DNA of 64,000 nt from Kiloniellales bacterium (GTDB lineage: Bacteria > Pseudomonadota > Alphaproteobacteria > Kiloniellales > JAKSBE01). The notes beneath the pieces are model-generated. The model was not told the DNA's origin, made no database searches, and saw only the letters and a list, made by a program, of their open reading frames with translations. The position numbers and the translations under genes were made by a program. The stretch spans positions 1-64,000 of the forward strand of contig JASJBF010000018.1 in assembly GCA_030066685.1 (NCBI GenBank). Reading direction: 5' to 3'. The first letter of the stretch is position 1. Every line of letters starts with the position of its first letter. Of the stretch, positions 42,008 through 60,541 are shown one piece after another.

Positions 42008-43030
42008 CTAGCCCGCCTGGAGGTCGGTCAAGGCCACGGGGCTGCCGCCCGTGACCGGCCGCTGCAGGGTCCGGCCGAGCAGCTCCGGCAGGGCGCAGGG
42101 CGCGACCGCGTGGCTCGGCCGCAAGGGGATGAGGTGCGCGGCCTCGATCCGGGTCCCGGCCGCCAGGTCGCCGGTCCAGTAGAGGCCGCGGCGGGCGGTC
42201 TCGCGGCGCGCCAGCTCGGCCTCGCTGCGCTCCAGGCGGCCGTCGCCGAGGATGGCCGGGACCTGGCGCAGGGCGCCGACGATCCGGGTCAGGCTCTCCG
42301 GGGTCTCGGACATGGCGTGGTCGTAGCCGGGCAGGGCCCGGTCGGTGGTGAAGTGCTTCTCCAGCGCGACCGCGCCCAGGCCGGCCGCCAGAAGGGCGAT
42401 GGCCGGCGACTCGCGGGAATGGTCGGAGAGCCCGACCGGCAGGCCGAAGGCCTGGCGCAGAGTCTCGATGGCACGCAGGTTGGCGGCCTCGGGCGGCGTC
42501 GGGTAGAGCGCGACGCAGTGCATCAGGACGATCTGGTCGTTGCCGGCCGCGCGCGCGGCCTCGACCGCACGCTCGACCTCGCCCAGGCGGCCGAAGCCGG
42601 TCGAGATGATCACCGGCCTGCCGTAGCCGGCGACCTGGGCGATCAGGGGCAGGTTGGTCAGGTCGCAGGAGGCGATCTTGAAGCAGGGCACGCCGACGGC
42701 GGCCAGGGTCTCGGCGCTGCCGGCGTCGAGCGGGGTTGAAAAGAACTCGACGCCGGCGCTCCCTGCCGCAGCGCTCAGCTCCGGATACCAGTGATCCGGA
42801 ACTTCATAACGGCGGCGCTCGTCCAGCCCTGGAACCCGGTCGGAGAGGAAGGCCTCGGTCCGGAAGGACTGGAACTTCACCGCGTCGACGCCGCAGGCGG
42901 CCGCGGCCTCGATCATGGCCAGGGCGAGGTCGAGCTCGCCGTTGTGGTTCATGCCGATCTCGGCGATGACGAAGACCGGTTCGCCGGAACCGACCCGGCG
43001 GCTGCCGATCGTGAGACCTTTAGGCGTCAT
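42008..43030 (-). CDS. neuB: NeuB-family nonulosonate (sialic/legionaminic/pseudaminic-type) synthase
   Basis: 340 aa. Condenses a 6-carbon amino sugar with phosphoenolpyruvate to give a nonulosonic acid. TIM barrel with VFVIAEIGMNHNGELDLA, AVKFQSFRTE, FSTPLDAGSAE, MHCVALYPTPPE, GLSDHSRE and the metal/PEP residues in EKHFTTDR, then a C-terminal SAF antifreeze-like domain (about 280-340: RRGLYWTGDLAAGTRIEAAH). The ATG at 43030 overlaps the upstream gene's stop by 4 bp. Which nonulosonate is made cannot be read from the sequence. Confidence 0.9.
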   Translation of the reverse strand: MTPKGLTIGSRRVGSGEPVFVIAEIGMNHNGELDLALAMIEAAAACGVDAVKFQSFRTEAFLSDRVPGLDERRRYEVPDHWYPELSAAAGSAGVEFFSTPLDAGSAETLAAVGVPCFKIASCDLTNLPLIAQVAGYGRPVIISTGFGRLGEVERAVEAARAAGNDQIVLMHCVALYPTPPEAANLRAIETLRQAFGLPVGLSDHSRESPAIALLAAGLGAVALEKHFTTDRALPGYDHAMSETPESLTRIVGALRQVPAILGDGRLERSEAELARRETARRGLYWTGDLAAGTRIEAAHLIPLRPSHAVAPCALPELLGRTLQRPVTGGSPVALTDLQAG

Positions 43031-43773
43031 GCGTAGGCTTCCCTGCTTCCGCCTTCGGTTGCCGTCGCGCCCGGGACGGCGGCGCGCCTGGCCGCCGCCA
43101 GGATCTCTGGCACCGCCCAGTCGGCGGCGGGACGCGCCGGCAGCAGGGCGAGCATCGCGTCCAGGCGGGCCAGGTCCTCGGGCGTGTCGACGCAGAGGTC
43201 GAGCTCCGGGGCCCGCCATTCCAGCGGCGTGATCGCCGGTGCCCAGGCGAAGCCCGAGCCTTCCTGGAAGACGGCGCCGGTGATGGATTCCCGCTGCGCG
43301 GCGGCCGTGACCTCGCGGTCGAGCCGGTCCAGCGCCGCGGCGGTCAGGACCTCGGCGCCCAGCCCGACCGGCAGGCCGGTGTAGCCGTTCTTGCCGGTCA
43401 CGCAGTCGGCGTCCTGCAGGACGATCTGATCGAGCGCGCTGTCGATGACCTCGGCCGAGAGCAGGGGGCTGTCGCCGTTGGCCTTGACCACCAGGCCGGC
43501 GCCCTCCGCGCGGGCGGCGGCGGCGCAGCGGCCCAGCACGTCGTCGACGGCGCCGCGGTGGCAGGGCAGGCCGAGCCCGGCCGCGGCCTCCGCCAGGCCG
43601 TCGTCGCAGGCGCGCTCGGTCGTCGCCAGGACGATCCGGTCGAGGCGCCGGGCCTGGCCGAGGCGGGCGGCCAGGATCTCGATCAGCGGCCGGCCCGCCA
43701 GGGGCCTCAGATGCTTGTTAGGCAGCCGTCGAGAGTCCGTTCGCAGCGGCACGATCGCGATCACGCGCGTCAT
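43027..43773 (-). CDS. CMP-sugar cytidylyltransferase, SpsF/NeuA-like
   Basis: 248 aa. Nucleotidyltransferase fold with the CTP-binding N-terminal loop IVPLRTDSRRLPNKHLRPL, GRPLIEIL, VLATTERACDD, the SpsF-typical DDVLGRCAAAAR and metal-binding KANGDSPLL, and CVDTPEDLARL near the end. Would activate the nonulosonate as its CMP form. Its start lies inside the upstream kinase-like gene (56-bp overlap). The N-terminal loop is essential, so the overlap is real. Confidence 0.85.
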   Translation of the reverse strand: MTRVIAIVPLRTDSRRLPNKHLRPLAGRPLIEILAARLGQARRLDRIVLATTERACDDGLAEAAAGLGLPCHRGAVDDVLGRCAAAARAEGAGLVVKANGDSPLLSAEVIDSALDQIVLQDADCVTGKNGYTGLPVGLGAEVLTAAALDRLDREVTAAAQRESITGAVFQEGSGFAWAPAITPLEWRAPELDLCVDTPEDLARLDAMLALLPARPAADWAVPEILAAARRAAVPGATATEGGSREAYA

Positions 43774-45984: not shown

Positions 45985-46030
45985 TTGGGTAAGGCTGCTG
46001 CCAAAAGATTTAATTTGACCTAAATCCGAC

Positions 46031-46045
46031 GCAAAGGCCGTGCCA
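46031..46045 (-). promoter_or_regulatory. Sigma-54 promoter of the nonulosonate/kinase operon
   Basis: On the minus strand TGGCACGGCCTTTGC, a perfect match to the TGGCAC-N5-TTGC consensus, about 47 bp from the first start codon. The wider gap 45985-46458 (474 bp) holds this promoter, the palindromes below, and no convincing gene. Confidence 0.85.
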
Positions 46046-46137
46046 TGCCGAAGGTCGGCGCTATGACTAAAAGCGGATGAGTTTTGGGCTAAGCCGCTGA
46101 TTCTTAGACCTTCCGTCCTAGGAAAGATTTTCCGCTG

Positions 46138-46174
46138 GGCGAAAACTGCCGCCCGCAAAGCGGCAAGAATTGCC
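46138..46174 (-). promoter_or_regulatory. FlbD-like palindromes upstream of the nonulosonate/kinase operon
   Basis: GGCGAAAACTGCC (46138-46150) and GGCAAGAATTGCC (46162-46174), about 95-130 bp upstream of the sigma-54 promoter. The second is identical to the site at 36546 before fliF. Confidence 0.6.
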
Positions 46175-46458
46175 GGGCAGGGCCACCGAGGTCGCAGGGG
46201 AGGCCAGGGATTCCGCAGTCTTGGCCGCCTCGCGCCGGTGGCACGGAAGCTGCATTCCTGATACGGGGAGGCCAGGCAGGCCCGCCCCATTGGACGGCAG
46301 GACGCCGTCGTCACGCGGCAGGTAGCCGCACCCCTCTCCTGGCGGTTTCATCGGAGCACAGCCTGAAGCGCGGCCGGGTCGGCGCCCGGCTCGGCGCGTC
46401 GGCCCTTCTGCGTAGAGGCTGGCAAGGCAGGTTTCGGTTTCGGGGCTCTGGATCTGCG

Positions 46459-46911
46459 CTAGACGGAAATTCCGCCGCCCGGCGGCGGTGTGCCCTGGGA
46501 GCCGGCCGGGCCGGGCTCCTGCGCGGCCGGGCCGCCCTGGGCGGTCACCTCGGCCAGGAGCCCAGCGGCGATCTGGCGGTTGATGTTGATCAGGACGTCG
46601 AAGCCCTTGGGCTCCGGGTTGGCCAGCAGCCGCACAGTGTGCTTGTCGACGAAGTTGCAGAGATCCAGCATGTTCTTGCGGACCTCCGGCGGCAGCGGGC
46701 AGTCGGCCTGGGTGACCTCGGCCTGGAAGATGGTCCAGAGCCGCCAGTTCAGGCGCGCCGTCTCCTTCATCGCCGTGACGTCCTCCGGGGTCTTCTGGAC
46801 CTCGGCCATGCGGCGGGCGGACTCCAGCAGGGCCCGGCCCTCGGTCTCCCGGGGCGAGCCGCCCTGGCCCAGGGTCCCGCCGTAGGACTTCGCCGCCGAG
46901 TCATTCGGCAT
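46459..46911 (-). CDS. flaF: Flagellar biosynthesis regulator FlaF
   Basis: 150 aa. Helical FlaF domain in residues 1-120 (KSYGGTLGQGGSPRETEGRA, EVRKNMLDLCNFVDKHTVRL, FDVLININRQIAAGLL), then a Pro/Gly-rich tail. FlaF is needed for flagellin secretion or synthesis in alphaproteobacteria and opposes FlbT. The start overlaps the flbT stop by 11 bp. Confidence 0.9.
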   Translation of the reverse strand: MPNDSAAKSYGGTLGQGGSPRETEGRALLESARRMAEVQKTPEDVTAMKETARLNWRLWTIFQAEVTQADCPLPPEVRKNMLDLCNFVDKHTVRLLANPEPKGFDVLININRQIAAGLLAEVTAQGGPAAQEPGPAGSQGTPPPGGGISV

Positions 46912-47290
46912 GCTGCAGGATCCCGGCTTCGTGCTCGATCAGCTTCTGGCAGGCCTTTAGCCCGGCGTAGAGCTGGTCAGCGTCCAGCCGGCGGCGGATC
47001 TCCGCGGCCAGCGCCTCGGCGCTGGGCGCCGCCTGCAAGTAGTCGCCCAGCAGCCGGTCGAACTCCTCGACGAAGGCCGCGCGGCGGTCGGGGAAGAGAT
47101 AGGCGCACTGCAGGGCCAGATAGACCCGGGAGGCCGGGGTCCCGGCGTCCTCCGCGGTGAGGATGTCCTTCTGGCGGAGGATGTGCGCCTGATTCTCGAA
47201 GACGAGGCTGGCGACGTCGCCGTCGTTCTTGACGACCGCGCCGTTCACGATCAGCTTCTCGCCCTTGCCGAGGGTCAGCTTCAGGGGCAT
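46901..47290 (-). CDS. flbT: Flagellin mRNA regulator FlbT
   Basis: 129 aa. MPLKLTLGKGEKLIVNGAVV, a typical FlbT N terminus, then RQKDILTAEDAGTPASRVYL and helices to the end. In Caulobacter it binds the flagellin transcript leader and destabilises it. The ATG at 47290 is chosen by family start; the open frame runs further up but through an AT-rich promoter region. Shares a control region with the divergent maf gene, which holds a perfect CtrA box. Confidence 0.92.
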   Translation of the reverse strand: MPLKLTLGKGEKLIVNGAVVKNDGDVASLVFENQAHILRQKDILTAEDAGTPASRVYLALQCAYLFPDRRAAFVEEFDRLLGDYLQAAPSAEALAAEIRRRLDADQLYAGLKACQKLIEHEAGILQHAE

Positions 47291-47340
47291 GAGGATTACC
47301 CTAAAGGTTTGGTATAAATCTGATAAATCAGACTTTTTGA

Positions 47341-47356
47341 TTAAAATAAAATTAAC
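47341..47356. promoter_or_regulatory. Perfect CtrA box between flbT and maf
   Basis: TTAA-AATAAAA-TTAAC, an exact match to TTAA-N7-TTAAC. It lies 51 bp from the flbT start and 75 bp from the maf start, so it could serve both. Confidence 0.75.
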
Positions 47357-47430
47357 CCACACCAAGTTGGATAGGCCTTTCCAGCTTCATAGAGTAACTC
47401 TTTCTAACTAGTTAGCGTTTGAGAGGCGAT

Positions 47431-49446
47431 ATGGGCGCCGAGGCGCAGCCCGCACGGACCGGGCCCCGGAAACCCCAGCCCGGCCTGCCTTCGGGGCCGG
47501 TGCAGGACGCGGAGGGGGAGGCTTCTGAGGCCCGCCTCGCCGCAAACCTGGCCGCCTTGCAGGACTGGGCGCCGAACCTTCGGGCCCAGTTATCCGGCCT
47601 GTCCGAGATCCACTCCGAGCTCCTGACCGACCCCGACGGCGGCCTCGACATCGCCTTCCTGGGCCAGCGCTTCTACCAGACCGATGCCCGGGCCCATGCC
47701 GAGGCGCAGGTCGCGCGCTTCTTCCGGTCGCCGACCCGCAACCTGCTGAACGAGCCGGATCCCGAAAGCCTCAAGGGCGGGATCGGCGACTTCTGCCGGC
47801 GGGTCACGTCCCGCCTGGCCGAGGCCGGGATCGCCTACGACAAGGTGCTGCGCCGCGAGGAAACCCATTTCCTGCTGGTCCTGGGCGTCGGGCTCGGCCT
47901 GCATCTTCCGGAGCTTCTGGCGCGCAGCCAGTGCCGCTGCCTGGTGCTGATCGAGCCGACGCTGGAAAACCTCGCGCACTCGCTCCGGGTCCTCGACTGG
48001 GCGGGCCTGCTCGCCGCGGCCGCCGAACGCGAGGTGGAGGTCGTCTTCATCACCGAGCGCGATCCCACCGACATCGCCCAGAAGGCGCTTGCGGCGATCC
48101 GCGGCAACAATCCGGTGCTGATCGACGGCCTCTACCTCTTCGAACACTATCCCTCGGCGATCCTTCAGCAGGCCGCTGCGCAGCTGAAGCGCGAGCTCTA
48201 CTCGGCAATCCGCGGCCTCGGCTTCTTCGAGGACGAGGAGGTCATGGCCCGCAACGCGGTCGCCAACCTCGACCGGCCCAGGCTGCGCCTGATCGACCAG
48301 CCGCAGCCCTCGCTCGACACGCCGCTGTTCATCGTCGGTTCCGGACCTTCGCTGGAGCAGGAGCTCGATTTCCTCGAGGGCGCCGCCGGGCGGGTCGCGG
48401 TCATGTCGATCGGCACCACGCTCAGAATCCTGCTGGAGCGCGGCATCCGCCCCGACTTCCACATCGAGCTGGAGAACTCGGAGAACTGCGCGCGCTCGGT
48501 CGAGGCCACCGCGGCCGAGTTCGGCACCGCCGGCATCACCCTGATCGCCGCGCTCTCGGTCGACCGCCGCACGTCCGACTGCTTCGAAGCGCCGGTCTTC
48601 TTCCTGCGCGAGGAGAACACCGGCACCGTGCTTCTGGGTCAGCCGGTCATGCCCCTGTCGCCCTCCGGGCCGACGGTCGCCAACGCCGGCCTCAGCGCCG
48701 CGATCCGCCTCGGTTTCCGGGAGATCTACCTCTTCGGGGTCGACATGGGCTCCCGCGAGCACGGCCGCTACCACGCCGAGGGCTCGGTCTTCTCGACCGG
48801 TCTGCTGCCCGAGAACCGCCGGGCGCACCAGCGCTTCGCCGGCAACTTCGGCGGCGAGGCCTGGGGCGAGGCGGTGCTCAACTGGTCGCGCCTCTACCTG
48901 GAGGCCGTGCTGCGTATGTACGCCGGGATCACGGTCTACAACTGCAGCGACGGCGTCCGGATCGAGGGCGCGATCCCCAAGGTCTCCCGGGCGATCGAGC
49001 TGCCCGGACGGCCCCTCGACCGGGCCGCCCTGCTTCGAGGCGTCGAGACCGGGCTGGCCGGCTTCGACAAGGCCGGGCTGGCGTCGATCTGCGGCGCCGG
49101 CCTTGCCAGGGCCCGGGAGGACTCGGTCGTCGAACGTCTGATCGCCTGCCTGCGCGCGGCCGAGGCCGGCGACCTCGAGGACGGCGAATGGGTCTACGAG
49201 GTCTTCCGCCTGCTGCGCGCCGAGACCGCGGCGCGCAGCCTGACCGGATCCTTCGTCAAGGGCTCGGTGACCATGATCCTCGGCTGCGCCCTCTGGTACG
49301 ACAAGCGGTTGCGCGACCGCTCGCAGCTCGGCGCCTTCCGCCGCATCGCCCTGCAGGAGGCCATCGCCGCCCTGGAGGACTTCCGCAGCCGGCTCGACCG
49401 GATCTTCGCGGACGCCGAACGGGTGCTGACGGCTTCCGAAGCGTGA
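47431..49446 (+). CDS. Motility-associated factor (Maf), flagellin nonulosonate glycosyltransferase
   Basis: 671 aa. MAF/DUF115 family: central Rossmann-like domain with the diagnostic FIVGSGPSLEQELDFLEGAA, VMSIGTTLRILLERGIRPDF HIELE (split for length) and LFGVDMGSREHGRYHAEG, flanked by family-typical N- and C-terminal helical parts. Maf proteins transfer pseudaminic or legionaminic-type sugars to Ser/Thr of flagellin before export. The NeuB/cytidylyltransferase genes 4-7 kb away would supply the CMP-sugar. ATG 47431 with GAGAGG upstream is preferred to a TTG 12 bases before it. Stands alone on the plus strand. Confidence 0.9.
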   Translation: MGAEAQPARTGPRKPQPGLPSGPVQDAEGEASEARLAANLAALQDWAPNLRAQLSGLSEIHSELLTDPDGGLDIAFLGQRFYQTDARAHAEAQVARFFRSPTRNLLNEPDPESLKGGIGDFCRRVTSRLAEAGIAYDKVLRREETHFLLVLGVGLGLHLPELLARSQCRCLVLIEPTLENLAHSLRVLDWAGLLAAAAEREVEVVFITERDPTDIAQKALAAIRGNNPVLIDGLYLFEHYPSAILQQAAAQLKRELYSAIRGLGFFEDEEVMARNAVANLDRPRLRLIDQPQPSLDTPLFIVGSGPSLEQELDFLEGAAGRVAVMSIGTTLRILLERGIRPDFHIELENSENCARSVEATAAEFGTAGITLIAALSVDRRTSDCFEAPVFFLREENTGTVLLGQPVMPLSPSGPTVANAGLSAAIRLGFREIYLFGVDMGSREHGRYHAEGSVFSTGLLPENRRAHQRFAGNFGGEAWGEAVLNWSRLYLEAVLRMYAGITVYNCSDGVRIEGAIPKVSRAIELPGRPLDRAALLRGVETGLAGFDKAGLASICGAGLARAREDSVVERLIACLRAAEAGDLEDGEWVYEVFRLLRAETAARSLTGSFVKGSVTMILGCALWYDKRLRDRSQLGAFRRIALQEAIAALEDFRSRLDRIFADAERVLTASEA

Positions 49447-50213: not shown

Positions 50214-52169
50214 TCAGCCGCCGCGTTCTTCCCAGGCCTTGAAGAGCGCCGCATAGGCAGCTTCCAGGGAACGCGTGAAACCCTGGACGTCGGCCAGGGG
50301 CGAGGCCTCGGACTCGGCGCGCAGGGCCTGGCGCAACGCCGCCAGGGCGGCGCGGTCGCGGGTCAGGCGGAAGGCGATCTCACCGAGTGCCGCCGGGTCC
50401 GTCGCGATCCACTCCGCCCGGCCGGCCAGGGTCAGCACGCTGGCCGCGCGCCGCGCCACCGGTGTGGTCCCGGCCAGGGCCAGGACCGGCACGCCCATCC
50501 AGAGCGCCCGGCAGACCTCGACCGCGCTCTCCGCTGCGCCCCAGTCGAGGGCGAGGTCGACGTGGGCGTAGAAGTCGAACTCGGTGCGGAAGTTGTCGGC
50601 GTGGTTCACGATGTCGCAGCGCTGCCGCAGGCCGAGGTGCGAGACGCAGTCCAAGACCCGGGCGATGCAGCTCTGGTCCTGGTTATGCCGGTTGCAGATC
50701 AGCAGGCGCGCGCCGGGCACCCGGGCCAGGGCCGCGGCCCAGGCGCCGACCGTCGCCGTGTCGATATGGCGCAGGTCGCCTTGCACCCCGAAGGTGACCT
50801 GGCCGCTCTGCGCCGCCGGCAGCTGCCCCGGCTCGGGCAGGAGGGCGAGCGGCCGGTAGGCGAGCTGGCCCGGCGCGAGGCGCAGGGGCGGCGCGTCGTC
50901 GGGCGCGCAAGCGTCGTCCTCCGGCCAGGCGACGCCGTCGGTCAGGACGCGGTCGAAGCCACCGGCGTCCGGTGGGACAAGATTGACGAGCCAGGCGAGG
51001 GCCACGGGCGCCGGCCGCCGGGCCAAGAGCAACGGCCGGCCGCCCGGTGCCTGGCCGGAGAGGTCGACAGCGATGTCGATCTCGTCGCCCTGGAGGATCT
51101 GCCAGGCGGTCTCGTCGTCGATGCGGTCGAGATCGGTCCAGCGGTGGGCGGCCCGCATCAGCCGCTCGGTCACGGCGTCCGCGCGGCCGCCGTCGGCATA
51201 GCAGTGGGCCTCGACCTTCGCCGTGTCGTGGCTGCGCAGGACCGGCTCGAAGAAGCGCATCAGGTCGCAGTCGCGGAAGCTGCCACAGAGGTAGCCGACC
51301 CGCAACGGACGCTCGTCGCGCCAGGGCGCCCGCCGCGGCGCTGGGCGCGGCTCCAGCTGGGCGTGACGCCGGTACCAGTCGCGCTGGGCCTCGGCCAGGG
51401 TCGCGGCCGCCGCCGGCCGCCGGGCCAGGTGGTCGAGCAGCCGGGCGTGCAGACGGGCGTCGTCGGGCGCGCCGGCGCAGGCGCTGCCATGGCAGGCCTC
51501 GGCCTCCTCGTGGCGGCCGGCCAGGTCCAGGGCCAGGGCGAGTTGGCTGAGATCGGCGGCCGCCGGAACATCGAGGTGCAGCAGGGCGTGGGCGGCGGCG
51601 ATGGCGCGCTCGGCGCGGCCGCTCTCCCGGCAGAGGTCCCTCAGGAGGCGCAGGCTCTCGGGATCGCCGGGGGTCAGCTCGAGCTGGGTCTCGCAGTCGG
51701 CGATCGCCGCCTCGGTCTCGCCCAGGCGCTGTTGGCGCCGGGCGCGCTTGAGATAGAGGTCGGGCCGGCCCTGCCGGAGATTGCCGAAGAAGGAGCCGAG
51801 CCGCGGCGGCAGCAGGCCTTCGATCTCACCGTGCGGCTCGAGGATAGTGCCGAGCTTGGCGTAGTAGAGGCTCTCCTGGACCCGGCCCAGCTTGGCGTTG
51901 ATCGCGGCCAGGGCCTCGGCCGCCTCCTGGAGCTCCGGGTTCGCCTCGTGGGCTCGCTCCATCAGCTTGATGGCTTGGACCGGCTCGTCCAGGTCGAAGC
52001 TGACGAGGCCCAGGAGGTAGAGCGCCTCGGCGCAGTCGGGGGTCTCGCGCAGCAGCCCCTCGCAGATCACGATGGCTTCGTCGTGGCGGCCCCAGTCGAG
52101 GCGCTCGATCGCCTCTCGGACTGCGGCGAGGCTGCTGCTGGTCTCTGCTGTCGTCATGCTGGCCGGCAT
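50214..52169 (-). CDS. TPR + GT41 (OGT/SPINDLY-like) glycosyltransferase, FlmG-like
   Basis: 651 aa. N-terminal half: TPR-like helical repeats (residues about 20-250; LYLLGLVSFDLDEPVQAIKL, YAKLGTILEPHGEIEGLL). C-terminal half: GT41 catalytic fold (RPLRVGYLCGSFRDCDLMRF, PVALAWLVNLVPPDAG, TFGVQGDLRHID, HVDLALDWGAAESAVEVCRA, LWMGVPVLALAGTTPVAR). This domain plan matches Caulobacter FlmG, which modifies flagellins. It lies directly next to a flagellin gene, with a CtrA-type box upstream. Acceptor and sugar are inferred. Confidence 0.82.
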   Translation of the reverse strand: MPASMTTAETSSSLAAVREAIERLDWGRHDEAIVICEGLLRETPDCAEALYLLGLVSFDLDEPVQAIKLMERAHEANPELQEAAEALAAINAKLGRVQESLYYAKLGTILEPHGEIEGLLPPRLGSFFGNLRQGRPDLYLKRARRQQRLGETEAAIADCETQLELTPGDPESLRLLRDLCRESGRAERAIAAAHALLHLDVPAAADLSQLALALDLAGRHEEAEACHGSACAGAPDDARLHARLLDHLARRPAAAATLAEAQRDWYRRHAQLEPRPAPRRAPWRDERPLRVGYLCGSFRDCDLMRFFEPVLRSHDTAKVEAHCYADGGRADAVTERLMRAAHRWTDLDRIDDETAWQILQGDEIDIAVDLSGQAPGGRPLLLARRPAPVALAWLVNLVPPDAGGFDRVLTDGVAWPEDDACAPDDAPPLRLAPGQLAYRPLALLPEPGQLPAAQSGQVTFGVQGDLRHIDTATVGAWAAALARVPGARLLICNRHNQDQSCIARVLDCVSHLGLRQRCDIVNHADNFRTEFDFYAHVDLALDWGAAESAVEVCRALWMGVPVLALAGTTPVARRAASVLTLAGRAEWIATDPAALGEIAFRLTRDRAALAALRQALRAESEASPLADVQGFTRSLEAAYAALFKAWEERGG

Positions 52170-52267: not shown

Positions 52268-53083
52268 CTACTGGAAGAGCCGCAGTATCGACTGCTCGGC
52301 CTGGCCGGCGAAGGACAGGGCGCCGATGCCGAGCTGCTGGCGGGTCTGCAGGGCCACCAGGTTGGCGCCTTCCTCGTTGATGTCCGCGAGGGTCAGCTTG
52401 CCGGCCCCTTCCTCGTGATCGTTGACGTAGCGCTCGGTGAAGTCGAGCCGGGCCTGGAGCAGGGCGACGTTGGAGCCGATCGACTGGGCGCGGCCCCGGA
52501 GGGTCGAGAGCGCGGCGTCGATCTCGGTCAGGCGGGCGTCGATCACCGTGCTCAGCGAGAAGCTGCCCGCGGTGGTCACGTTGAGGCCGGCGGTGGTCAG
52601 GTCGAAGCCCTGGACCACCAGCTTGCTGACGGTGTCGGTCGAAAAGGCGATCTCGAGCTGGGACGCCGTGCTGTTGACCAGGTTCGTGCCCTGGTAGCTC
52701 GCGTCGTTGGCCAGGTTGGTGATCTGGCCGAGCAGCTCGTCGAACTGGGTCTTGATGGCCGAGAGCTGGTTGCCCGAGGCGGTTTTGGCGCTGATCGCCA
52801 GGCCCTTCATCTGCCGGACCAGGGTGTCGATGGACTCGATCGCGTTGAGGGCCGTGGTGATCGAGGATATCCCCTGGTCGATCCCGCTCTTCCTTTCCCC
52901 AAGGTCGAGCGCGCGGTCGTTGAGCGCCTTGGCCTCGAAGAAGGCCGTGGCGTCGTCGATCGGCGAGGCCACGGCGAGGCCGGTCGCCAGGCGCTCCTGG
53001 GTCCGGTTGATGAGGTCCTGGGTTCGGTTGAGGGCCAGCAGGTTGGTCCGCACCGCTGACGACAGGGTGATATCGTTGGCCAT
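52268..53083 (-). CDS. Flagellin, short type (copy 1)
   Basis: 271 aa. D0/D1 N-terminal segment (SSAVRTNLLALNRTQDLINR, LATGLAVASPIDDA) and C-terminal partner (TERYVNDHEEGAGKLTLADI, NEEGANLVALQTRQQLG) are complete. The middle is short (about 60 residues) with many Ser/Thr, candidate glycosylation sites. Has its own sigma-54 promoter. A sister flagellin is at 59.6-60.5 kb. The C terminus (SILRLFQ) matches the family. Exported and polymerised into the filament. Confidence 0.95.
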   Translation of the reverse strand: MANDITLSSAVRTNLLALNRTQDLINRTQERLATGLAVASPIDDATAFFEAKALNDRALDLGERKSGIDQGISSITTALNAIESIDTLVRQMKGLAISAKTASGNQLSAIKTQFDELLGQITNLANDASYQGTNLVNSTASQLEIAFSTDTVSKLVVQGFDLTTAGLNVTTAGSFSLSTVIDARLTEIDAALSTLRGRAQSIGSNVALLQARLDFTERYVNDHEEGAGKLTLADINEEGANLVALQTRQQLGIGALSFAGQAEQSILRLFQ

Positions 53084-53144: not shown

Positions 53145-53159
53145 GCAATGGCTGTGCCA
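53145..53159 (-). promoter_or_regulatory. Sigma-54 promoter of flagellin copy 1
   Basis: On the minus strand TGGCACAGCCATTGC, a perfect -24/-12 consensus, 62 bp before the start codon. Confidence 0.85.
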
Positions 53160-53421: not shown

Positions 53422-54792
53422 GTGGAAAAGATCTTGCCGCAACGCGAAGCCTTTGCCCTCGAGGCCTGTTTTGACCGCCTCTGGCCGCTTCACCGCAGCA
53501 TCACGGGCGCCGGTGTTCGTGCCACCCTGGACATCCTGGCCGAGATCATGCCCCACGCCCGCCTCGAGGTGCCGAGCGGCACGGAGGTGCTGGACTGGAC
53601 CGTGCCCAAGGAATGGGTCGCACGGCAGGCCTATCTGATCCGCCCGGACGGCCGACGCATCTGCGATATCGGGGACAACAATCTTCATCTGGTCAACTAT
53701 TCGATACCCTTCCGCGGACGGCTGCGGCTCGACGAGCTGCAGGCGCATCTGCACAGCCTTCCCGAGCTGCCCGAGGCGGTTCCCTACGTCACCAGCTATT
53801 ACGCGCCGCGCTGGGGCTTCTGCCTGTCGCATGCGGAGCGCGAGGCCCTGCCGGATGGCGACTACGAGATCGTGGTCGACACCGATCTCGTGGACGGCGC
53901 GCTCAGCATCGCCGAGGCCGTTCTGCCCGGGGAGGATACGGACGAGGTGCTGCTGTCGAGCTATACCTGCCACCCCTCCTTGGCCAACAACGAGCTCTGT
54001 GGACCGCTGGTTCTGAGCTTTCTGTATCGGCGCCTGGCCGCCTGGCCCAAGCGGCGGCTGACCTATCGCTTTCTGCTCTTGCCCGAGACCATCGGCAGCA
54101 TCGCCTATCTGGCACTGCACGGAGGGCACCTGGTCCAAAACCTGGTCGCCGGATACGTCGTGACCTGCGTCGGCACGGCGGAGCCCTTCGTCTACAAGCG
54201 AAGCCGGCAGGGCGGCAGCCTGGCGGACCGGGCCGCGGCGGCGGTGCTGGCCGAACGCACCGGCGAGCGGCATCGGATCGCCAACTTTCGCCCCGACCGC
54301 GGGGGCGACGAGCGACAGTACAACGCGCCCGGCTTTGGCCTCCCGGTCGGCAGTCTGATGCGCAGCCCGTCCAGCAGCTACCCGGAGTATCACACCTCCC
54401 TGGACAACAAGGATCTGATCTCCTTCGAGGCGATGGAGGAGACACTCGACGTCTATGAGGCCATCTGCCGCGCGCTCGATGGCAACCGGCGCTACCTCAA
54501 CCTGGCCCCCTTTGGCGAGCCACAACTGGGGCGGCGCGGGCTCTACGGCACGCTGGGGGACCGCCGGCGGCCGGTGGAGCGCAGCGCCCTGATGTGGCTC
54601 CTCAGCGACGGCGACGGTAACCACGACCTGCTCGACATCGCGGCACGCAGCGGCCTCGGTCCCGAGCTGCTGATCTCCGCGGCGGAGCGCTTGGTGGATG
54701 CCGGGCTCCTGCGGTCGCTGGCAAACGGCGAGAGTGCTCGCCTGCCGGAGCCGCCAGCCACGTTGGAAGGCCGCCGCGATGCCGCTGCCTGA
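53422..54792 (+). CDS. DUF4910 aminopeptidase-like protein with C-terminal winged helix
   Basis: 456 aa. Metallopeptidase-like (M28-like) domain: LSSYTCHPSLANNELCGPLV, LLPETIGSIAYLALHGG and PEYHTSLDNKDLI carry His/Asn/Glu and His residues in the positions of zinc ligands. N-terminal LWPLHRSITGAGVRATLDIL is a family marker. C-terminal about 70 residues form a winged-helix-like part. Family members are common in surface-polysaccharide loci, but no activity is established. First gene of a tightly packed six-gene operon, overlapping the next by 14 bp. An ATG or GTG slightly upstream is possible. Confidence 0.8.
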   Translation: MEKILPQREAFALEACFDRLWPLHRSITGAGVRATLDILAEIMPHARLEVPSGTEVLDWTVPKEWVARQAYLIRPDGRRICDIGDNNLHLVNYSIPFRGRLRLDELQAHLHSLPELPEAVPYVTSYYAPRWGFCLSHAEREALPDGDYEIVVDTDLVDGALSIAEAVLPGEDTDEVLLSSYTCHPSLANNELCGPLVLSFLYRRLAAWPKRRLTYRFLLLPETIGSIAYLALHGGHLVQNLVAGYVVTCVGTAEPFVYKRSRQGGSLADRAAAAVLAERTGERHRIANFRPDRGGDERQYNAPGFGLPVGSLMRSPSSSYPEYHTSLDNKDLISFEAMEETLDVYEAICRALDGNRRYLNLAPFGEPQLGRRGLYGTLGDRRRPVERSALMWLLSDGDGNHDLLDIAARSGLGPELLISAAERLVDAGLLRSLANGESARLPEPPATLEGRRDAAA

Positions 54793-55543
54793 GACCGGTT
54801 TTGAAGATCTTGTCGCCCATCTCCGGACGCTCGGCCTCAGGAAGGGAGACGACATCGTGGTGCACGGCCACCTCGTCGGCTTCGGCCGCATCGAGGGCGG
54901 TGCCGCGACGCTCGACCGGGCTCTGCGGGCGGTGATCGGGGAAGGGGCCACCATCGCGGTCCCGACCTATACCTTTCGCTGCGACCCCGAAGCCCCCTTC
55001 GATCCCCAGGCCACCCCATCACAGGGCATGGGCGTGTTCTCCGAGCACCTGCGCAAGCAGCCTCAGGTCCGGCGGAGCTGGTGTCCTTTGCACAGCCACG
55101 CGGCCAAGGGGCCGAAGGCGTCCTTGCTGCGCGAAGGCCTGTTCACCGCGTCCTTTGGTCCGGGCTCGGACTTCGAGGTCTTCTACGAGGCAGGCTTTCG
55201 CCTGCTGACCCTGGGCTGTGCCTTTCTCAAGGGGGCGAGCTACGTCCACCATGTCGAGGCGGTTGCGAAGGTGCCGTATCGCGAATGGCGCGAGCTGCCA
55301 CGGCGCATCGTGCTCGAGGACGGCCGCCTGGCCGAGGGAGTTTGCCGATACTACCTGCGCAAGGACCGCGGCGTCGTCGAGAACTTCACCGTGGTCGGCG
55401 CCGCCCTGGAAGCTGCGGGCCAGCTTCGCCGCGCGTGCTGTCCGCTCGGCGGCTCGACCCTCTGCGACCTGACAGCGGTACATGAAACCACGCTGAAGCT
55501 GTTGCGCGCCGATCCCTATGCCGTGGTGACGTCGACACGATGA
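54779..55543 (+). CDS. AAC(3)-like N-acyltransferase
   Basis: 254 aa. Antibiotic_NAT family: DDIVVHGHLVGFGRIEGGAA, TIAVPTYTFRCDPEAPFD, GVFSEHLRKQPQVRRSWCP and the active-site HSHAAKGPKA. The family uses a phosphopantetheine thioester (normally acetyl-CoA) to acylate an amino group, classically on aminoglycosides. In this setting the acceptor is more likely an amino sugar and the donor could be the carrier protein two genes downstream; both are inference. ATG 54779 begins the family N terminus. Confidence 0.8.
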   Translation: MPLPETGFEDLVAHLRTLGLRKGDDIVVHGHLVGFGRIEGGAATLDRALRAVIGEGATIAVPTYTFRCDPEAPFDPQATPSQGMGVFSEHLRKQPQVRRSWCPLHSHAAKGPKASLLREGLFTASFGPGSDFEVFYEAGFRLLTLGCAFLKGASYVHHVEAVAKVPYREWRELPRRIVLEDGRLAEGVCRYYLRKDRGVVENFTVVGAALEAAGQLRRACCPLGGSTLCDLTAVHETTLKLLRADPYAVVTSTR

Positions 55544-57075
55544 GCCCGTCACCCGACCTTCCGCTCAACCGGTTCCTGGACTTCGCCGAGAGTCACCCTC
55601 GGCATCCCGCGGTCGAGGCGGAGGGCCGGAGGGTCCACTACGGCGAACTGGCGATCTTGGTCCGCCGCCTGGCTCGGAGCTTCGCCGCCGTGAAGCCACA
55701 GCCCCGGGTTCTGATCCATCTTCCCCAAGCTCATCGGGCCTACGCCGCGATGCTGGGCGCGCTCATGGCCGGGGGCTGCTACGCGCCCAACAATCTTTCC
55801 GCCCCGCCGGCACGGCAGGCCATGACCGTGAATCTCTTCGAGCCCGATCTCGTGGTCACCGAAGCTTCCGCCTGGACCGGTTTTCCCGGCGGCTCGCCGG
55901 CCTGCCCGATCGTCGACGTCGATACCTTGACGGCACCGGCGCTGGACGCGCCCCTGGAGGCTGGGGAGCTTGCCTACGTGATGTTCACCTCGGGGTCCAC
56001 CGGCCGGCCCAAGGGGGTGATGATCCCGCGTGAAGCGCTGGCGAACTACGCGGCCTGGGCTTGGCGGGCGATGGCGGTGACGCCCGAGGATCGTTGGTCC
56101 CAGCATCCCAACATCGCCTTCGACCTGAGCGTGCTCGACGTCTACGGCGCCCTGGGCGCGGGCGCGACGCTTTGCCCCTTGAGCGGCGCGCGGGACCGTT
56201 TGATGCCGGGCGATGCCGTCCGGCGCTTGGGCCTGACGCTGTGGAACTCGGTGCCAAGCGTCGTCGATCTCATGCGTCGAGGCGGCCAACTGACCACGGA
56301 TAACCTTGCGTCCCTGCGTCTGATGACCTTCTGCGGCGAGCCCCTGACCCAAGACCAGCTGGAGGCGATCTTCGCGGCACGTCCCGACATGGTCGTTCAC
56401 AACACCTATGGACCGACCGAGGCCACGGTCTCCTGCACGCTGCTGCGTCTCACCTCGTCGAGCTACCGGCAAGCGGTGGTGCAGAACGTCGCCCTGGGCG
56501 AAGCCATAGATGGAATGACCCTGACCCTGGCCCCAAGTCCGGCCGGCAGCGCGGGGTCCGACGAAGGGGAGATCTGGCTGTCCGGACCGCAGGTGGCGCT
56601 GGGCTACTGGCGGGACCCTAGGGCGACCGCGGCCGCCTTCGGCGAGGTCCGGCGGCAGGGGCGGGTCGAGCGGCTCTATCGGACCGGCGATCTCGGCCGC
56701 CGCTGCGACGGACAGCTCTACTTCCAGCGCCGCCTGGACCAGCAGGTAAAGGTGGCCGGTCACCGGGTCGAGCTGGGCGCGGTCGATGCGGCGCTCAGGG
56801 ACTCCGGCGTGCTGGCCGCCTGCACGGTGCAGATCGACGGAGAACTGCATGCGTTCGTGGTCGATCCGGAGGACCGGGTCGAGCCGGAAGCCCTGCGCCG
56901 GGCCTTGGCCGAGCGCCTTGCGGCCTACGAAGTTCCCAAGGCCATTCATCTCGTTGATGCCTTGCCGCTGAGCGCCAACGACAAGATCGACAGCGGCGCC
57001 CTGATCGCCGCCTACCGCCGGCGGGGCCGGCCCGAGGGCCGACCCGAGGAGATACCTGTTCATGGATCTGATTGA
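55540..57075 (+). CDS. Stand-alone amino acid adenylation (NRPS A-domain) enzyme
   Basis: 511 aa. Core motifs are intact: A3 FTSGSTGRPKGVM (149-161), A4 with FDLSVLD and the substrate amine-binding Asp195, A5 NTYGPTEAT, A7 YRTGDLGRR, A8 RRLDQQVKVAGHRVELGAV and A10 LPLSANDKID with catalytic Lys. Activates an amino acid as aminoacyl-AMP and loads it on a carrier protein. The Asp in A4 points to an alpha-amino acid substrate. There is no condensation domain. Overlaps the preceding gene by 4 bp and the carrier gene by 14 bp. Confidence 0.88.
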   Translation: MSPSPDLPLNRFLDFAESHPRHPAVEAEGRRVHYGELAILVRRLARSFAAVKPQPRVLIHLPQAHRAYAAMLGALMAGGCYAPNNLSAPPARQAMTVNLFEPDLVVTEASAWTGFPGGSPACPIVDVDTLTAPALDAPLEAGELAYVMFTSGSTGRPKGVMIPREALANYAAWAWRAMAVTPEDRWSQHPNIAFDLSVLDVYGALGAGATLCPLSGARDRLMPGDAVRRLGLTLWNSVPSVVDLMRRGGQLTTDNLASLRLMTFCGEPLTQDQLEAIFAARPDMVVHNTYGPTEATVSCTLLRLTSSSYRQAVVQNVALGEAIDGMTLTLAPSPAGSAGSDEGEIWLSGPQVALGYWRDPRATAAAFGEVRRQGRVERLYRTGDLGRRCDGQLYFQRRLDQQVKVAGHRVELGAVDAALRDSGVLAACTVQIDGELHAFVVDPEDRVEPEALRRALAERLAAYEVPKAIHLVDALPLSANDKIDSGALIAAYRRRGRPEGRPEEIPVHGSD

Positions 57076-57298
57076 ACCTCGCAGTCTGGTCGCCGAGGCG
57101 CTGGACTGCACGCCGGATAGCCTGGAAGCCGAGGCGGCGCTGGGCCGGCACCCGAATTGGGACAGCTTCGGCCATCTCAACCTCATGATTGCGCTGGAAC
57201 AGCACTACGGCGTCGCGATCACGGACGAAACGGTCGAGCGCTACGCCACGCTGGGCGCCGTCACCGCACGTTTCAACGAACTGAGGAGCCAGACATGA
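57062..57298 (+). CDS. Peptidyl/acyl carrier protein
   Basis: 78 aa. Carrier-protein fold with the phosphopantetheine attachment Ser35 in HPNWDSFGHLNLM, then IALEQHYGVAITDETVERYA helix. Start overlaps the A-domain gene, stop overlaps the methyltransferase (ATGA), so it is almost certainly the partner of the adenylation enzyme. Confidence 0.88.
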   Translation: MDLIEPRSLVAEALDCTPDSLEAEAALGRHPNWDSFGHLNLMIALEQHYGVAITDETVERYATLGAVTARFNELRSQT

Positions 57299-58029
57299 CG
57301 GCAGAACAGGCCAGGATATCGCCGCCCGCTGGGGACGCAGGGGAGGGATTTGACAGCCGCTGGGAGTCGGCGGTCTATGGCGCCGGGCGGCACCTCAACC
57401 TCTATCCCCATTCGGCCGTCGTCTCTTTCGTCCTGCGCCAATACGCCGCGGTGCTGCAACGGGCGGAGGTTCGGATTCTCGAGGTCGGCTGCGGCGCCGG
57501 CAACAACGTCTGGTTCCTCGCTCGCGAAGGCTTCACTGCCGCCGGGATCGACGGGTCGCACACCGCCATCGACTTCGCCCGCGAGCGCTTCGCGCGGGAC
57601 GGCTTGACGGCCGAGCTGGTGACCGGCGACTTTCAGAGCCTGCCCTGGGGTGACGAGAGCTTCGATTGCGTCATCGATCGCGGCTCGATCACCCACAACC
57701 GCCGGGCCGTCATCGCGCGGACCCTGGACGAGGTATCCCGTGTCCTGAAGCCCGGCGGGGGCTTTCTCTCGATGATCTACGGCACCGGGCATCCGGCGCG
57801 CCATTTCGGCAGGCCGCTCGGCGACGGCGCGTTCAGCGACTTCTCCGACGGCTACTTCGCCGACATCGCTCTGACCTTCTTTGCCCGCGACGCCGACATC
57901 GACGAGCTCTACAGGAGCCGCTTCTCGATCCAAAGCAAGGAGCTGGAGGTGATCGAGGACCATCAGCATGGCGGCGGTTGCGTCAAGGCGATGTGGCATC
58001 TCGGCTGCCGCAAGCCGCTCGCCGGATGA
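57295..58029 (+). CDS. SAM-dependent methyltransferase
   Basis: 244 aa class I methyltransferase: motif I ILEVGCGAGNNVWFLA, motif II-type DGSHTAIDFARERFARDG, the acidic/aromatic patch SFDCVIDRGSITHNRR and VLKPGGGFLSMIYG. The family modifies N, O or C of small molecules. N-methylation of the carrier-bound amino acid or O/N-methylation of a sugar are both possible. ATGA overlaps on both sides. Confidence 0.85.
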   Translation: MTAEQARISPPAGDAGEGFDSRWESAVYGAGRHLNLYPHSAVVSFVLRQYAAVLQRAEVRILEVGCGAGNNVWFLAREGFTAAGIDGSHTAIDFARERFARDGLTAELVTGDFQSLPWGDESFDCVIDRGSITHNRRAVIARTLDEVSRVLKPGGGFLSMIYGTGHPARHFGRPLGDGAFSDFSDGYFADIALTFFARDADIDELYRSRFSIQSKELEVIEDHQHGGGCVKAMWHLGCRKPLAG

Positions 58030-59429
58030 GCGCGGTGACGAGGCCGGCCGGCGCCGGCGAGCGCTGGGCCGTCGTTGGCGGCGGCTTCCGTGGCATCGTT
58101 GCGGCCAAGCTCCTGCGTGAGGCGGGCTGCGAGGTGACGCTGATCGAGCGCATGGGGAGCCTCGGTGGGATCCTCCACGCGGAGGAATGGCAAGGGCTCT
58201 ACCTGGACAAGGGCTGCCACTACTTCGACAACGCCGACGATAGGGTGACGCGGGCGCTGCTGGAGATCCTGGAAGACAGGGTCGTGCCCGTCACCCCGCG
58301 ACTGGCGACCCGCCTGAACGGCCGGATCAGTCAGGGGGTCGCCCTGGTTGATTTCTCCCGGCAGGAGGCCGACTTGCGGCGGCGCATCGCCGAGGAGTTG
58401 AAGCAGGTGGCCGGGGAGCCCGACCACGGAGCCGGCACCTTGGCGGCGGCCTTGATGCGGCGCTTTGGCGCCACGGCCGGTGCCGTGGCCTCGGCGGCGG
58501 CCCGGAAGGCCTTCGCCATCGCGCCGGAGGCCCTGGACGCTTCGGCGCTGTGGACTTCGCCCTTTGTCCGGATCAGGCCGGACGTCGACAAAGCGTCTCG
58601 AAGCCTCAAGGAGATAGCGGGGCTGGATGGACGCCTGGCGGTAAGCTCGCTCGACGACCACTTCCGTTTCGCTCCCGGAGTCACGGGCTATCGGCATCGA
58701 TTCTTCTATCCCGCCGGATGCGGCCTGCGCAGCTTCTGCGATGCTGCCGCGGCGCACCTCGAAGGGCTCGGGGTCGATCTCGTCCTGGGGCGCGGCCTGG
58801 CCGGACTAGATGCCGATGCCCACGGCGTCCGCCTCGAGCTTCAGGACGGCGAGACGCTCCCGGCCGATCGCCTGCTTTGGACGCTGGACCTCGGTCCGCT
58901 CGCGGGGCTGGTTCTTGGCGAGGACCCCCTGTCGGCATTGATTCACCGGACGCCGATGGTGCTCTTCCACTTTCTCCTGCCGGCCGCGGCGCCGCCGGCC
59001 TTCACCTACTACTATGATTTCGATCCGGACAGCCTGGTCTACCGGGCATCGGCGCCAGGCTTCTATGGCCGGCAAAGCAACGCGCAGGGGCAGAGCTACC
59101 TCGCTGTCGAAGTCGTGGTGCCGCAGGACCATGCGGTCTGGCGAGATCCGGAAAGCGCCGCGCCCCGGGTTTGGAGCGAGCTTTGTGCCTCGGGCTTCAC
59201 CGACGTTCCAGCACCCTTGGCGGTCAAGATCACCAAGACCCCGGTATCCTTCAAGAACCCCAGGTTGGGCTATGGCGCCGCGTTGCAGAAAACGCTGGAG
59301 CACCTTGTAGCGGCCGGCCAGGAGCGGATCTCCTGGTCGGATCCCGGCTTGATGAAAAAGAACGACATCCTCCGCGAAGTCGCTGCTTTGATCGGCGGCG
59401 GTTCATCTCCACGGCGCTTGGCCGGCTAG
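58026..59429 (+). CDS. FAD-dependent oxidoreductase (amine oxidase/UDP-galactopyranose mutase-like)
   Basis: 467 aa. N-terminal dinucleotide-binding VVGGGFRGIVAAKLLREAG and VTLIERMGSLGGILHAEE, then YLDKGCHYFDNADD. The C-terminal FAD part includes LLWTLDLGPLAGLVLGE. The pattern sits between protoporphyrinogen-oxidase-like and UDP-galactopyranose mutase-like flavoproteins. Last gene of the operon. Its stop lies at the edge of a large palindrome that may end transcription. Confidence 0.8.
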   Translation: MSAVTRPAGAGERWAVVGGGFRGIVAAKLLREAGCEVTLIERMGSLGGILHAEEWQGLYLDKGCHYFDNADDRVTRALLEILEDRVVPVTPRLATRLNGRISQGVALVDFSRQEADLRRRIAEELKQVAGEPDHGAGTLAAALMRRFGATAGAVASAAARKAFAIAPEALDASALWTSPFVRIRPDVDKASRSLKEIAGLDGRLAVSSLDDHFRFAPGVTGYRHRFFYPAGCGLRSFCDAAAAHLEGLGVDLVLGRGLAGLDADAHGVRLELQDGETLPADRLLWTLDLGPLAGLVLGEDPLSALIHRTPMVLFHFLLPAAAPPAFTYYYDFDPDSLVYRASAPGFYGRQSNAQGQSYLAVEVVVPQDHAVWRDPESAAPRVWSELCASGFTDVPAPLAVKITKTPVSFKNPRLGYGAALQKTLEHLVAAGQERISWSDPGLMKKNDILREVAALIGGGSSPRRLAG

Positions 59430-59562: not shown

Positions 59563-59590
59563 GAAAAATGGGGGCGCCGAAGCGCCCCCA
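59560..59590 (-). terminator. Rho-independent terminator of flagellin copy 2
   Basis: On the minus strand TGGGGGCGC-TTCG-GCGCCCCCA followed by TTTTTCTTGTTT: a 9-bp perfect stem, tetraloop and T-tract, 30 bp past the flagellin stop. Confidence 0.92.
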
Positions 59591-59621
59591 TGAGAGGTCT
59601 CTCTCAGACTGGCTTGCCGGT

Positions 59622-60452
59622 TTACCGGAACAGGGCCAGCACGCCCTGCTCGGACTGGCCGGCGAAGGCCAAGGCCTGGATGCCGAGCTGCTGACGGGTC
59701 TGGAGGGCCACCAGGTTGGCGCCTTCCTCGTTGAGATCCGCCAGGGTCAGCTTGCCGGCGCCCTCTTCCAGAACGTTGACGTAACGCTCCGTGAAGTCCA
59801 GACGGGTCTGGAGCAGGGCGACGTTCGAACCCAGGGTCGAGGCGTTGCCTCGAAGGGTCGTGATGTCGGCGTCGATCTCGTTCAGGGCATTGTCGATGTT
59901 TGTCGAGACCGAGAAGTTTGCCGCCGACGCCACGGTCAGCCCCGTCACCGCCGTACCCTGGTCGATGCGGATATCGACGCCGCTGATGCTCAGGCTCGAG
60001 CTAGTACTGGTGCTGAACTCGACGGTGAGCGAGTTTGCCGTGCTGTTGACCAGGTTCAGGCCCTGGAACTCGGCGTCGTTTGCCAGGTTCGTGATCTGAG
60101 TCCGCAGTTCGTTGAACTGGGTCACGATCGAGCTCAGCTGCGAGCCGGTCGCCGACTTGGCCTGGATCGCCAGACCTTTCAGCTGGCGCAGGACCGAGTC
60201 GACCGCCTCGATGGCCTCGAGGGCCGTCGAGACCGAGCTGATCGCCTGATCGATCTCGCTCTTCCGGCCTTCAAGGTCGACCGCGCGATCGCTCAGCGAC
60301 TTCGACTCGAAGAACGCCGTCGCATCGTCGATCGGGCTGGCAACCTTCAGACCCGTGGACAAACGGCTCTGGGTCCGGTCGATCAGGCCGCTGGTTTCGT
60401 TGAGAGACAGCAGGTTCGTACGAATCGCTGCCGAAAGGGTGACTTCTGCCAT
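59622..60452 (-). CDS. Flagellin, short type (copy 2)
   Basis: 276 aa. Same plan as copy 1: AAIRTNLLSLNETSGLIDRT, LSTGLKVASPIDDATAFFES at the N terminus and TERYVNVLEEGAGKLTLADL, NEEGANLVALQTRQQLGIQA at the C terminus. The middle is Ser/Thr-rich (VEFSTSTSSSLSISGVDI), a likely site for O-linked sugar. Its own sigma-54 promoter and terminator suggest a strongly expressed monocistronic gene. Confidence 0.95.
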   Translation of the reverse strand: MAEVTLSAAIRTNLLSLNETSGLIDRTQSRLSTGLKVASPIDDATAFFESKSLSDRAVDLEGRKSEIDQAISSVSTALEAIEAVDSVLRQLKGLAIQAKSATGSQLSSIVTQFNELRTQITNLANDAEFQGLNLVNSTANSLTVEFSTSTSSSLSISGVDIRIDQGTAVTGLTVASAANFSVSTNIDNALNEIDADITTLRGNASTLGSNVALLQTRLDFTERYVNVLEEGAGKLTLADLNEEGANLVALQTRQQLGIQALAFAGQSEQGVLALFR

Positions 60453-60526: not shown

Positions 60527-60541
60527 GCAACCGGCGTGCCA
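60527..60541 (-). promoter_or_regulatory. Sigma-54 promoter of flagellin copy 2
   Basis: On the minus strand TGGCACGCCGGTTGC, a perfect -24/-12 consensus, 75 bp before the start. Confidence 0.88.

Follow-up and report, generated by a model that had tools for sequence, protein, structure and literature searches.

In Campylobacter jejuni, the DUF4910-family protein Cj1295 is needed for the di-O-methylglyceroyl group on N5 of the pseudaminic acid that decorates flagellin, and it has been proposed to remove the resident acetyl group (Hitchen et al., PMC3068675). The same study placed Cj1295 in one family with a homologue from Clostridium acetobutylicum. The C. acetobutylicum protein CA_C2195 is encoded in an island together with NeuB, Maf, AAC(3)-like, carrier, and ATP-grasp proteins, and the authors of its structure argue against a peptidase function (Das et al., PMC4000134). 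Here we describe a related block of six plus-strand genes, designated A to F, located between two flagellin genes of a Kiloniellales bacterium (GTDB lineage JAKSBE01; GenBank assembly GCA_030066685.1). The block occupies positions 53422 to 59429 of the DNA analyzed, the first 64,000 nucleotides of contig JASJBF010000018.1, hereafter referred to as the window. The reading that we favor, with a confidence slightly better than even, is that the operon arrived as a cassette by horizontal transfer and serves to attach an amino acid to the nitrogen of an amino sugar with which flagellin is glycosylated.

A preliminary description, made from the sequence of the window, had reported six genes with overlapping stops and starts, and indeed all five junctions overlap, by 14, 4, 14, 4, and 4 nt in gene order. 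Pfam likewise assigned every product to the family then named, including Methyltransf_25 for gene E and Amino_oxidase/NAD_binding_8 for gene F. The whole block is present at the same place in a sister Kiloniellales metagenome genome (G026, locus L001), with 85 to 92% identity. The dN/dS values between the window and the sister were 0.15 to 0.27 for A, B, C, E, and F, gene D being too short for an estimate, indicating that these five genes are under purifying selection. Conservation in the sister and the dN/dS values together show that the six-gene block is not a chance arrangement.

A congener (G027) has the two flagellin genes directly adjacent, as do seven further members of the order, a count limited to genomes having both flagellins on one contig, and the gap between them measures 244 to 285 bp in the block-free genomes. 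When the G027 gap was aligned to the window, the terminator of flagellin 2 fell on one side and the promoter region of flagellin 1 on the other, with the block between them; the G027 assembly is 81% complete, and the empty gap itself was read directly. The G+C content at third codon positions (GC3) is 0.83 in the block versus 0.86 to 0.97 in neighboring genes, where it averages roughly 0.94. These data identify the block as an insertion between the flagellins, and a recent one, the flagellins and the surrounding glycosylation genes being older. The operon hence did not belong to the ancestral flagellar locus but was acquired.

The gene A product contains DUF4910 (E value 7.9e-84), DUF2172, and HTH_47 in the domain order of the family, and its sole relative in the PDB is 3k9t, i.e., CA_C2195 (E value 9e-102). 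The Zn ligands His189, Asp195, and His324 of CA_C2195 correspond to H184, N190, and H324 in gene A, so that both histidines are kept. At the position equivalent to Asp195, 21 of 31 aligned DUF4910 sequences have Asn and 10 have Asp, indicating that Asn190 is a subfamily trait and not damage. The alignment comprises two types, “NNEL” (with Asn at the Zn-ligand position) and “NDN,” and the Glu of the PETIG motif is absent in five NDN-type sequences.

Gene C encodes an AMP-binding domain plus the C-terminal domain, its best NCBIfam model being TIGR01733 (299 bits, slightly under the cut-off of 317). As previously stated, the adenylation motifs, the amine-binding Asp, and the carrier Ser are intact: C retains the TSGSTG core motif, Asp195 (equivalent to the amine-binding Asp235), and Lys482 (equivalent to Lys517), and D retains the WDS motif. 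The C pocket, read by hand alignment to the PheA positions, is D195 L196 L199 N236 T263 C265 T289 V297 S298 K482, and the best structure matches of the pocket region were PltF (Pro), 4oxi, 6akd, and DltA. We take 4oxi to be AlmE (Gly) and 6akd to be IdnL7 (small amino acids). The DltA pocket, read likewise, is D L M T M C T V A, a likeness that points to a small amino acid substrate; judged from its Ala/Gly/Ser-like pocket, C likely activates a small alpha-amino acid. Both AlmE and DltA are carrier-loading enzymes (PMC12930378). As candidates for the operon as a whole, the two systems were rejected: the DltA models scored 249.5 versus 476 and 237 versus 560 bits and there is no DltB/DltD-like gene in the operon, while for AlmEFG the operon transferase is an Antibiotic_NAT protein and no AlmG-type lipid acyltransferase adjoins the pair.

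In the class sample, the nearest relatives of C beyond the genus are mostly A-domains in long nonribosomal peptide synthetase (NRPS) open reading frames (ORFs), with identities of 40% or less. Together with an order of enzymes that fits small-molecule tailoring, this speaks for an operon unrelated to glycans, a mini-NRPS making a secreted small molecule such as a methylated, oxidized amino acid derivative. We regard this as quite improbable, since the operon has no condensation, thioesterase, or transport gene, the A and B families are tied to nonulosonate loci (30-locus survey, below; PMC4000134), and the best local match of D is the carrier of an AAC(3)-FkbH locus.

That match (40% identity over 55 residues) accompanies a PP-binding score for D that is weak yet above threshold (23.4 bits, cut-off 20.8). 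Loci L058 and L069 encode an AAC(3)-like domain fused to FkbH, with a carrier alongside. In other pathways, FkbH loads glycerate onto carriers. The likeness of D to an AAC(3)-FkbH carrier is the best sequence evidence that B may draw its acyl group from D, and in conjunction with the fusions it suggests that C takes the place of FkbH as the loader. The fusions themselves (L058, 10823-13390; L069, 10946-13447) adjoin MaoC, ketoreductase, and carrier genes and are likely to carry out glyceryl or hydroxyacyl transfer to amino sugars.

The B product, a distant AAC(3)-fold protein, matched Antibiotic_NAT with an E value of 9.6e-33 (114 bits, cut-off 25), keeps the catalytic H..E motif as HHVE, and has AAC(3)-III (7lao) and FrbF as its PDB relatives. 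A role as an AAC(3) resistance enzyme was rejected, the best NCBIfam resistance equivalog scoring 84.5 bits against a cut-off of 270. The position of the block between two flagellins might suggest that the carrier-bound amino acid goes straight onto the flagellin protein with no sugar between. We consider this very improbable, because the acceptors known for the Antibiotic_NAT fold are small amines (AAC(3), FrbF) and because Cj1295 alters the glycan, not the peptide (PMC3068675).

Under the favored reading of the operon as an aminoacylation cassette for a flagellin sugar, C would activate a small alpha-amino acid with ATP and load it onto the phosphopantetheine of D; the only phosphopantetheinyl transferase (PF01648) found in the genome is AcpS-sized. 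B, taken to be an AAC(3)-fold enzyme that draws on acyl carriers, would then pass the aminoacyl moiety on to an amine of a nonulosonate or of a nonulosonate precursor. A may ready the acceptor, e.g., by stripping off an acetyl group already there, the role suggested for Cj1295, or may aid acyl exchange, while E would methylate and F oxidize either the amino acid or the sugar. The CMP-activated product would finally be transferred to flagellin by the GT41 protein or Maf. What we observed is the gene set, with its motifs, conservation, insertion, and genomic associations; the reactions, their substrates, and the acceptor are inferred.

The surroundings of the block provide candidates for the remaining steps (Table 1). 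GT41, Maf, FlbT, FlaF, NeuB, cytidylyltransferase, and PseG-like genes all lie within ~13 kb of it, and the association of NeuB, a cytidylyltransferase, and Maf/GT41 with adjoining flagellins is that of a flagellin glycosylation locus. The description of both flanking flagellins as sigma-54 driven was borne out by an exact TGGCAC-N5-TTGC site before each. The GT41 protein shares its domain order with FlmG (described in PMC7591256). Against curated models, the NeuB-type protein scored 285 bits with NeuB_NnaB and 249 bits with PseI (cut-off 340), both under cut-off. A canonical pseudaminic acid pathway was considered; the scores fall short (PseI, 249/340; PseG, 80/154 bits) and no PseB was detected at an E value of 1e-10 or lower, but contig C30 has an aminotransferase gene next to a dehydratase-like gene. 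Two long ORFs without a Pfam match, HprK-like by eye, separate the nonulosonate genes from FlaF/FlbT (43718-46314, minus strand); the longer contains an exact sigma-54 -24/-12 pattern (46045-46031, minus strand), possibly preceding its true start.

Table 1. Coordinates of the six-gene block and of neighboring features in the window
Feature	Position	Strand	Basis
Gene A, DUF4910/DUF2172/HTH_47 protein, CA_C2195/Cj1295 family	53422..54792	+	Pfam, PDB match, metal-site alignment
Gene B, AAC(3)-fold acyltransferase with retained H..E motif (His, Glu)	54779..55543	+	Pfam, PDB matches, motif alignment
Gene C, stand-alone amino acid adenylation enzyme	55540..57075	+	Pfam, NCBIfam, motif/pocket alignment
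Gene D, carrier protein, WDS phosphopantetheine Ser	57062..57298	+	Pfam PP-binding, local carrier match
Gene E, S-adenosylmethionine (SAM) methyltransferase, family found beside DUF4910 and NeuB	57295..58029	+	Pfam, homologue contexts
Gene F, FAD oxidoreductase, amine-oxidase superfamily	58026..59429	+	Pfam
Flagellin 1	52268..53083	-	Pfam
Flagellin 2	59622..60452	-	Pfam
Sigma-54 -24/-12 site of flagellin 1, retained in the empty site	53145..53159	-	Exact TGGCAC-N5-TTGC
Sigma-54 -24/-12 site of flagellin 2	60527..60541	-	Exact TGGCAC-N5-TTGC
Flagellin 2 terminator, also present at the empty site; left insertion border on minus-strand reading	59568..59591	-	Gap alignment
Tetratricopeptide repeat (TPR) + GT41 protein, FlmG-like domain order, candidate flagellin glycosyltransferase	50214..52169	-	Pfam
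Maf flagellin nonulosonate transferase	47419..49446	+	Pfam Maf_flag10_N, 3.1e-43
FlaF and FlbT	46459..47365	-	Pfam
CMP-sugar cytidylyltransferase, SpsF/NeuA-like	43027..43773	-	Pfam
NeuB-type nonulosonate synthase, start codon inferred within the ORF	42008..43030	-	Pfam, 2.8e-70
PseG/SpsG-like protein	40916..41986	-	TIGR03590, E value 2.6e-22, 80 bits, under the cut-off of 154

Homologues of E (E value of 1e-25 or lower) were found in 6 of 385 genomes of the class, in four of the six at 3 to 7 kb from a DUF4910 gene. Besides the sister genome, G020 has an F homologue (42% identity). It lies inside a flagellar locus that also encodes LegB, LegC, and a NeuC-type epimerase, each scoring above cut-off, together with Maf, a radical-SAM protein, and a FemAB-like transferase. 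In G020 and G021 the E homologue adjoins NeuB, GT41, and flagellin genes. With homologues in flagellar legionaminic acid loci of another family, E and F have the appearance of enzymes that tailor flagellar nonulosonates and can be found independently of A to D. A plasmid search with gene F gave no match. The legionaminic acid loci concerned (L152, at G020 C27:1-20000, and L145/L125, at G021 C19) combine the FemAB-like transferase with a B12-binding radical-SAM protein, possibly another way of making a flagellin sugar that is aminoacylated or C-methylated.

The ~10-kb neighborhoods of 30 DUF4910 loci from Alphaproteobacteria were surveyed. An AAC(3)-like gene was present in 13 of them, an AMP ligase in 8, a carrier in 7, and NeuB in 10. 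Full A+B+C+D cores occur in the window and its sister, in G266 (flagellar), and in G004, G331, and G334, the one in G331 being a pseudaminic acid cluster according to the PseI and PseG cut-offs. A distantly related flagellar locus, L067, has DUF4910, carrier, AAC(3), methyltransferase, pyridoxal phosphate enzyme, and AMP ligase genes between GT41 and flagellin; it also encodes, between the AMP ligase and the flagellin, a 340-amino-acid protein with no family match (16060-17082). L060 and L027 each combine DUF4910, AAC(3), AMP ligase, and carrier genes with an E homologue and a methylaspartate mutase. Among the full cores, those of G004 and G331 have the latter enzyme, pointing to an amino acid substrate. 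In L060 (15327-17240) and L027 (3702-6305), it is a single-chain methylaspartate (glutamate) mutase fused to a B12-binding domain, situated in nonulosonate/DUF4910 clusters, which suggests 3-methylaspartate as a glycan substituent there. In G334 (L065, 2668-8121), DUF4910 and AAC(3) genes lie beside LuxC (acyl-coenzyme A reductase), a LuxE-like ligase, a short-chain dehydrogenase, and a carrier-like protein.

None of the AMP ligases encoded in these cores is close to C, which suggests that the loading enzyme (FkbH, AMP ligase, or A-domain) is swapped against an otherwise constant core. A broader proposal follows, to which we give somewhat less than an even chance: DUF4910, the AAC(3)-like enzyme, and the carrier may form a reusable core for nonulosonate N-acylation with swappable loaders (FkbH for glycerate, AMP ligases, and an NRPS A-domain), the A-domain version having been inserted whole between tandem flagellins in this genus to give a flagellin sugar with a methylated, oxidized small amino acid that an NRPS-type enzyme loads.

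The survey also bears on whether flagellin is the destination. According to the preliminary description, its proposal would fail if relatives of the block lay mainly away from flagellar loci, and for DUF4910 this is what was found: a flagellin is nearby in 2 of the 30 loci and absent within ~10 kb in the other 28. The family thus serves surface nonulosonates generally, with only the complete six-gene block tied to flagellin. The cassette could accordingly aminoacylate an amino sugar of another surface glycan (lipopolysaccharide O-antigen or capsule), its landing between the flagellins being incidental; several of the DUF4910 loci lie in nonulosonate clusters, and the block was inserted recently, in the gap between two genes. 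We consider this unlikely given the nonulosonate, Maf, and GT41 genes within 13 kb, the presence of the same core type at the same type of locus in the distant relative L067, and the E/F homologues in flagellar legionaminic acid loci lacking A to D. The original proposal, that the AAC(3)-like enzyme transfers an amino acid from the carrier to an amino sugar destined for flagellin, survives as the best-supported reading, on the strength of the Cj1295 genetics (PMC3068675), L067, and the E/F homologues; the part that did not hold is the expectation of flagellar surroundings for the DUF4910 relatives.

Besides the mostly nonflagellar DUF4910 loci, several observations weigh against this flagellin aminoacylation reading. 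Among the genomes searched, only the window genome and its sister bear the block, so that the evidence for its position between the flagellins comes down to a single insertion. In A, Asn190 takes the place of the published Zn ligand Asp195, which makes any role assigned to A tentative. No PseB homologue was detected in the genome at an E value of 1e-10 or lower, in a search with a query from a relative and no positive control, and the nonulosonate enzymes of the window are under the curated cut-offs, so that any naming of the amino sugar would be tentative. The AMP ligases of L060, L027, and L067 are distant from C and do not have its pocket pattern. The roles given to E and F are likewise tentative: the AlphaFold model of E (83.7) has methyltransferases of many kinds as its best Foldseek matches, so that E resembles methyltransferases in general and no substrate can be read from them, and that of F (three sequences) has a pLDDT of 38.6, unfit for a fold search.

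If the proposal of amino acid transfer to a flagellin sugar is correct, flagellin glycosylation would gain a connection to NRPS-, Dlt-, and Alm-like activation of amino acids, and DUF4910, for which a crystal structure is available but no reaction is known, would acquire a function open to testing. Under the loader-swap pattern, a loader gene beside an AAC(3)-like gene would predict the N-acyl group of bacterial nonulosonates. The empty site of the congener offers a natural before/after comparison for flagellin mass.

In the literature searched, which covered papers readable without subscription, no description was found of an A-domain/carrier pair in flagellin glycan synthesis. The remark in the preliminary description that no pathway with precisely this gene set was known to it is too strong, as DUF4910, AAC(3), and carrier genes beside NeuB/Maf have been published for C. 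acetobutylicum (PMC4000134) and there are known flagellin glycans that bear amino acids. The individual parts have precedents in other bacteria; their combination with an NRPS-type loader is a variant of nonulosonate N-acylation undescribed in that literature. The comparison of the window with the C. jejuni locus was made from published descriptions. We take Cj1296 and Cj1297 to be AAC(3)-like and Cj1307 to be annotated as an amino acid-activating enzyme; the literature gave only the carrier annotation of Cj1308, with Cj1307 in passing. The presumed Cj1307 annotation, together with that of Cj1308, lowers the novelty of the arrangement.

The C. jejuni Cj1295 region resembles the block in that a DUF4910-family protein acts on the N-acyl group of a flagellin nonulosonate (PMC3068675), and the flagellin locus of this species also has acyl carrier proteins, Cj1308 and acpP2 being annotated as such (PMC6338021). 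It differs in that the acyl group is di-O-methylglyceroyl rather than an amino acid, and counterparts of flavoprotein F and methyltransferase E are unreported there. The C. acetobutylicum island (CA_C2186 to CA_C2199) shares DUF4910, AAC(3)-like N-acyltransferases, an acyl carrier protein, NeuB, and a Maf-type protein but has an ATP-grasp aminoacyl ligase instead of an A-domain, and its published table is without a flavoprotein (PMC4000134). Flagellin glycans with amino acid substituents, some of them N-methylated, are found in Clostridium botulinum (Leg5GluNMe7Ac) and Clostridium difficile (peptidylamido/N-methylthreonine), whereas in the parts of the reports consulted the candidate loading genes are of the ATP-grasp or ligase type and no A-domain/carrier pair is described (PMC5207245, PMC4441256). 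In Shewanella, flagellin modification requires sfmABCDE, with NeuB, methyltransferase, and ATP-grasp genes but without A-domain, carrier, DUF4910, or AAC(3) (PMC3765264). AlmEFG, by which Vibrio cholerae attaches Gly to lipid A, and DltABCD, which attaches D-Ala to teichoic acid, differ from the block in their unrelated transferases (lipid acyltransferase-like AlmG; membrane proteins DltB/DltD), their lipid or polymer acceptors, and the absence of DUF4910, but share with it a stand-alone A-domain that loads a small amino acid onto a discrete carrier for surface decoration.

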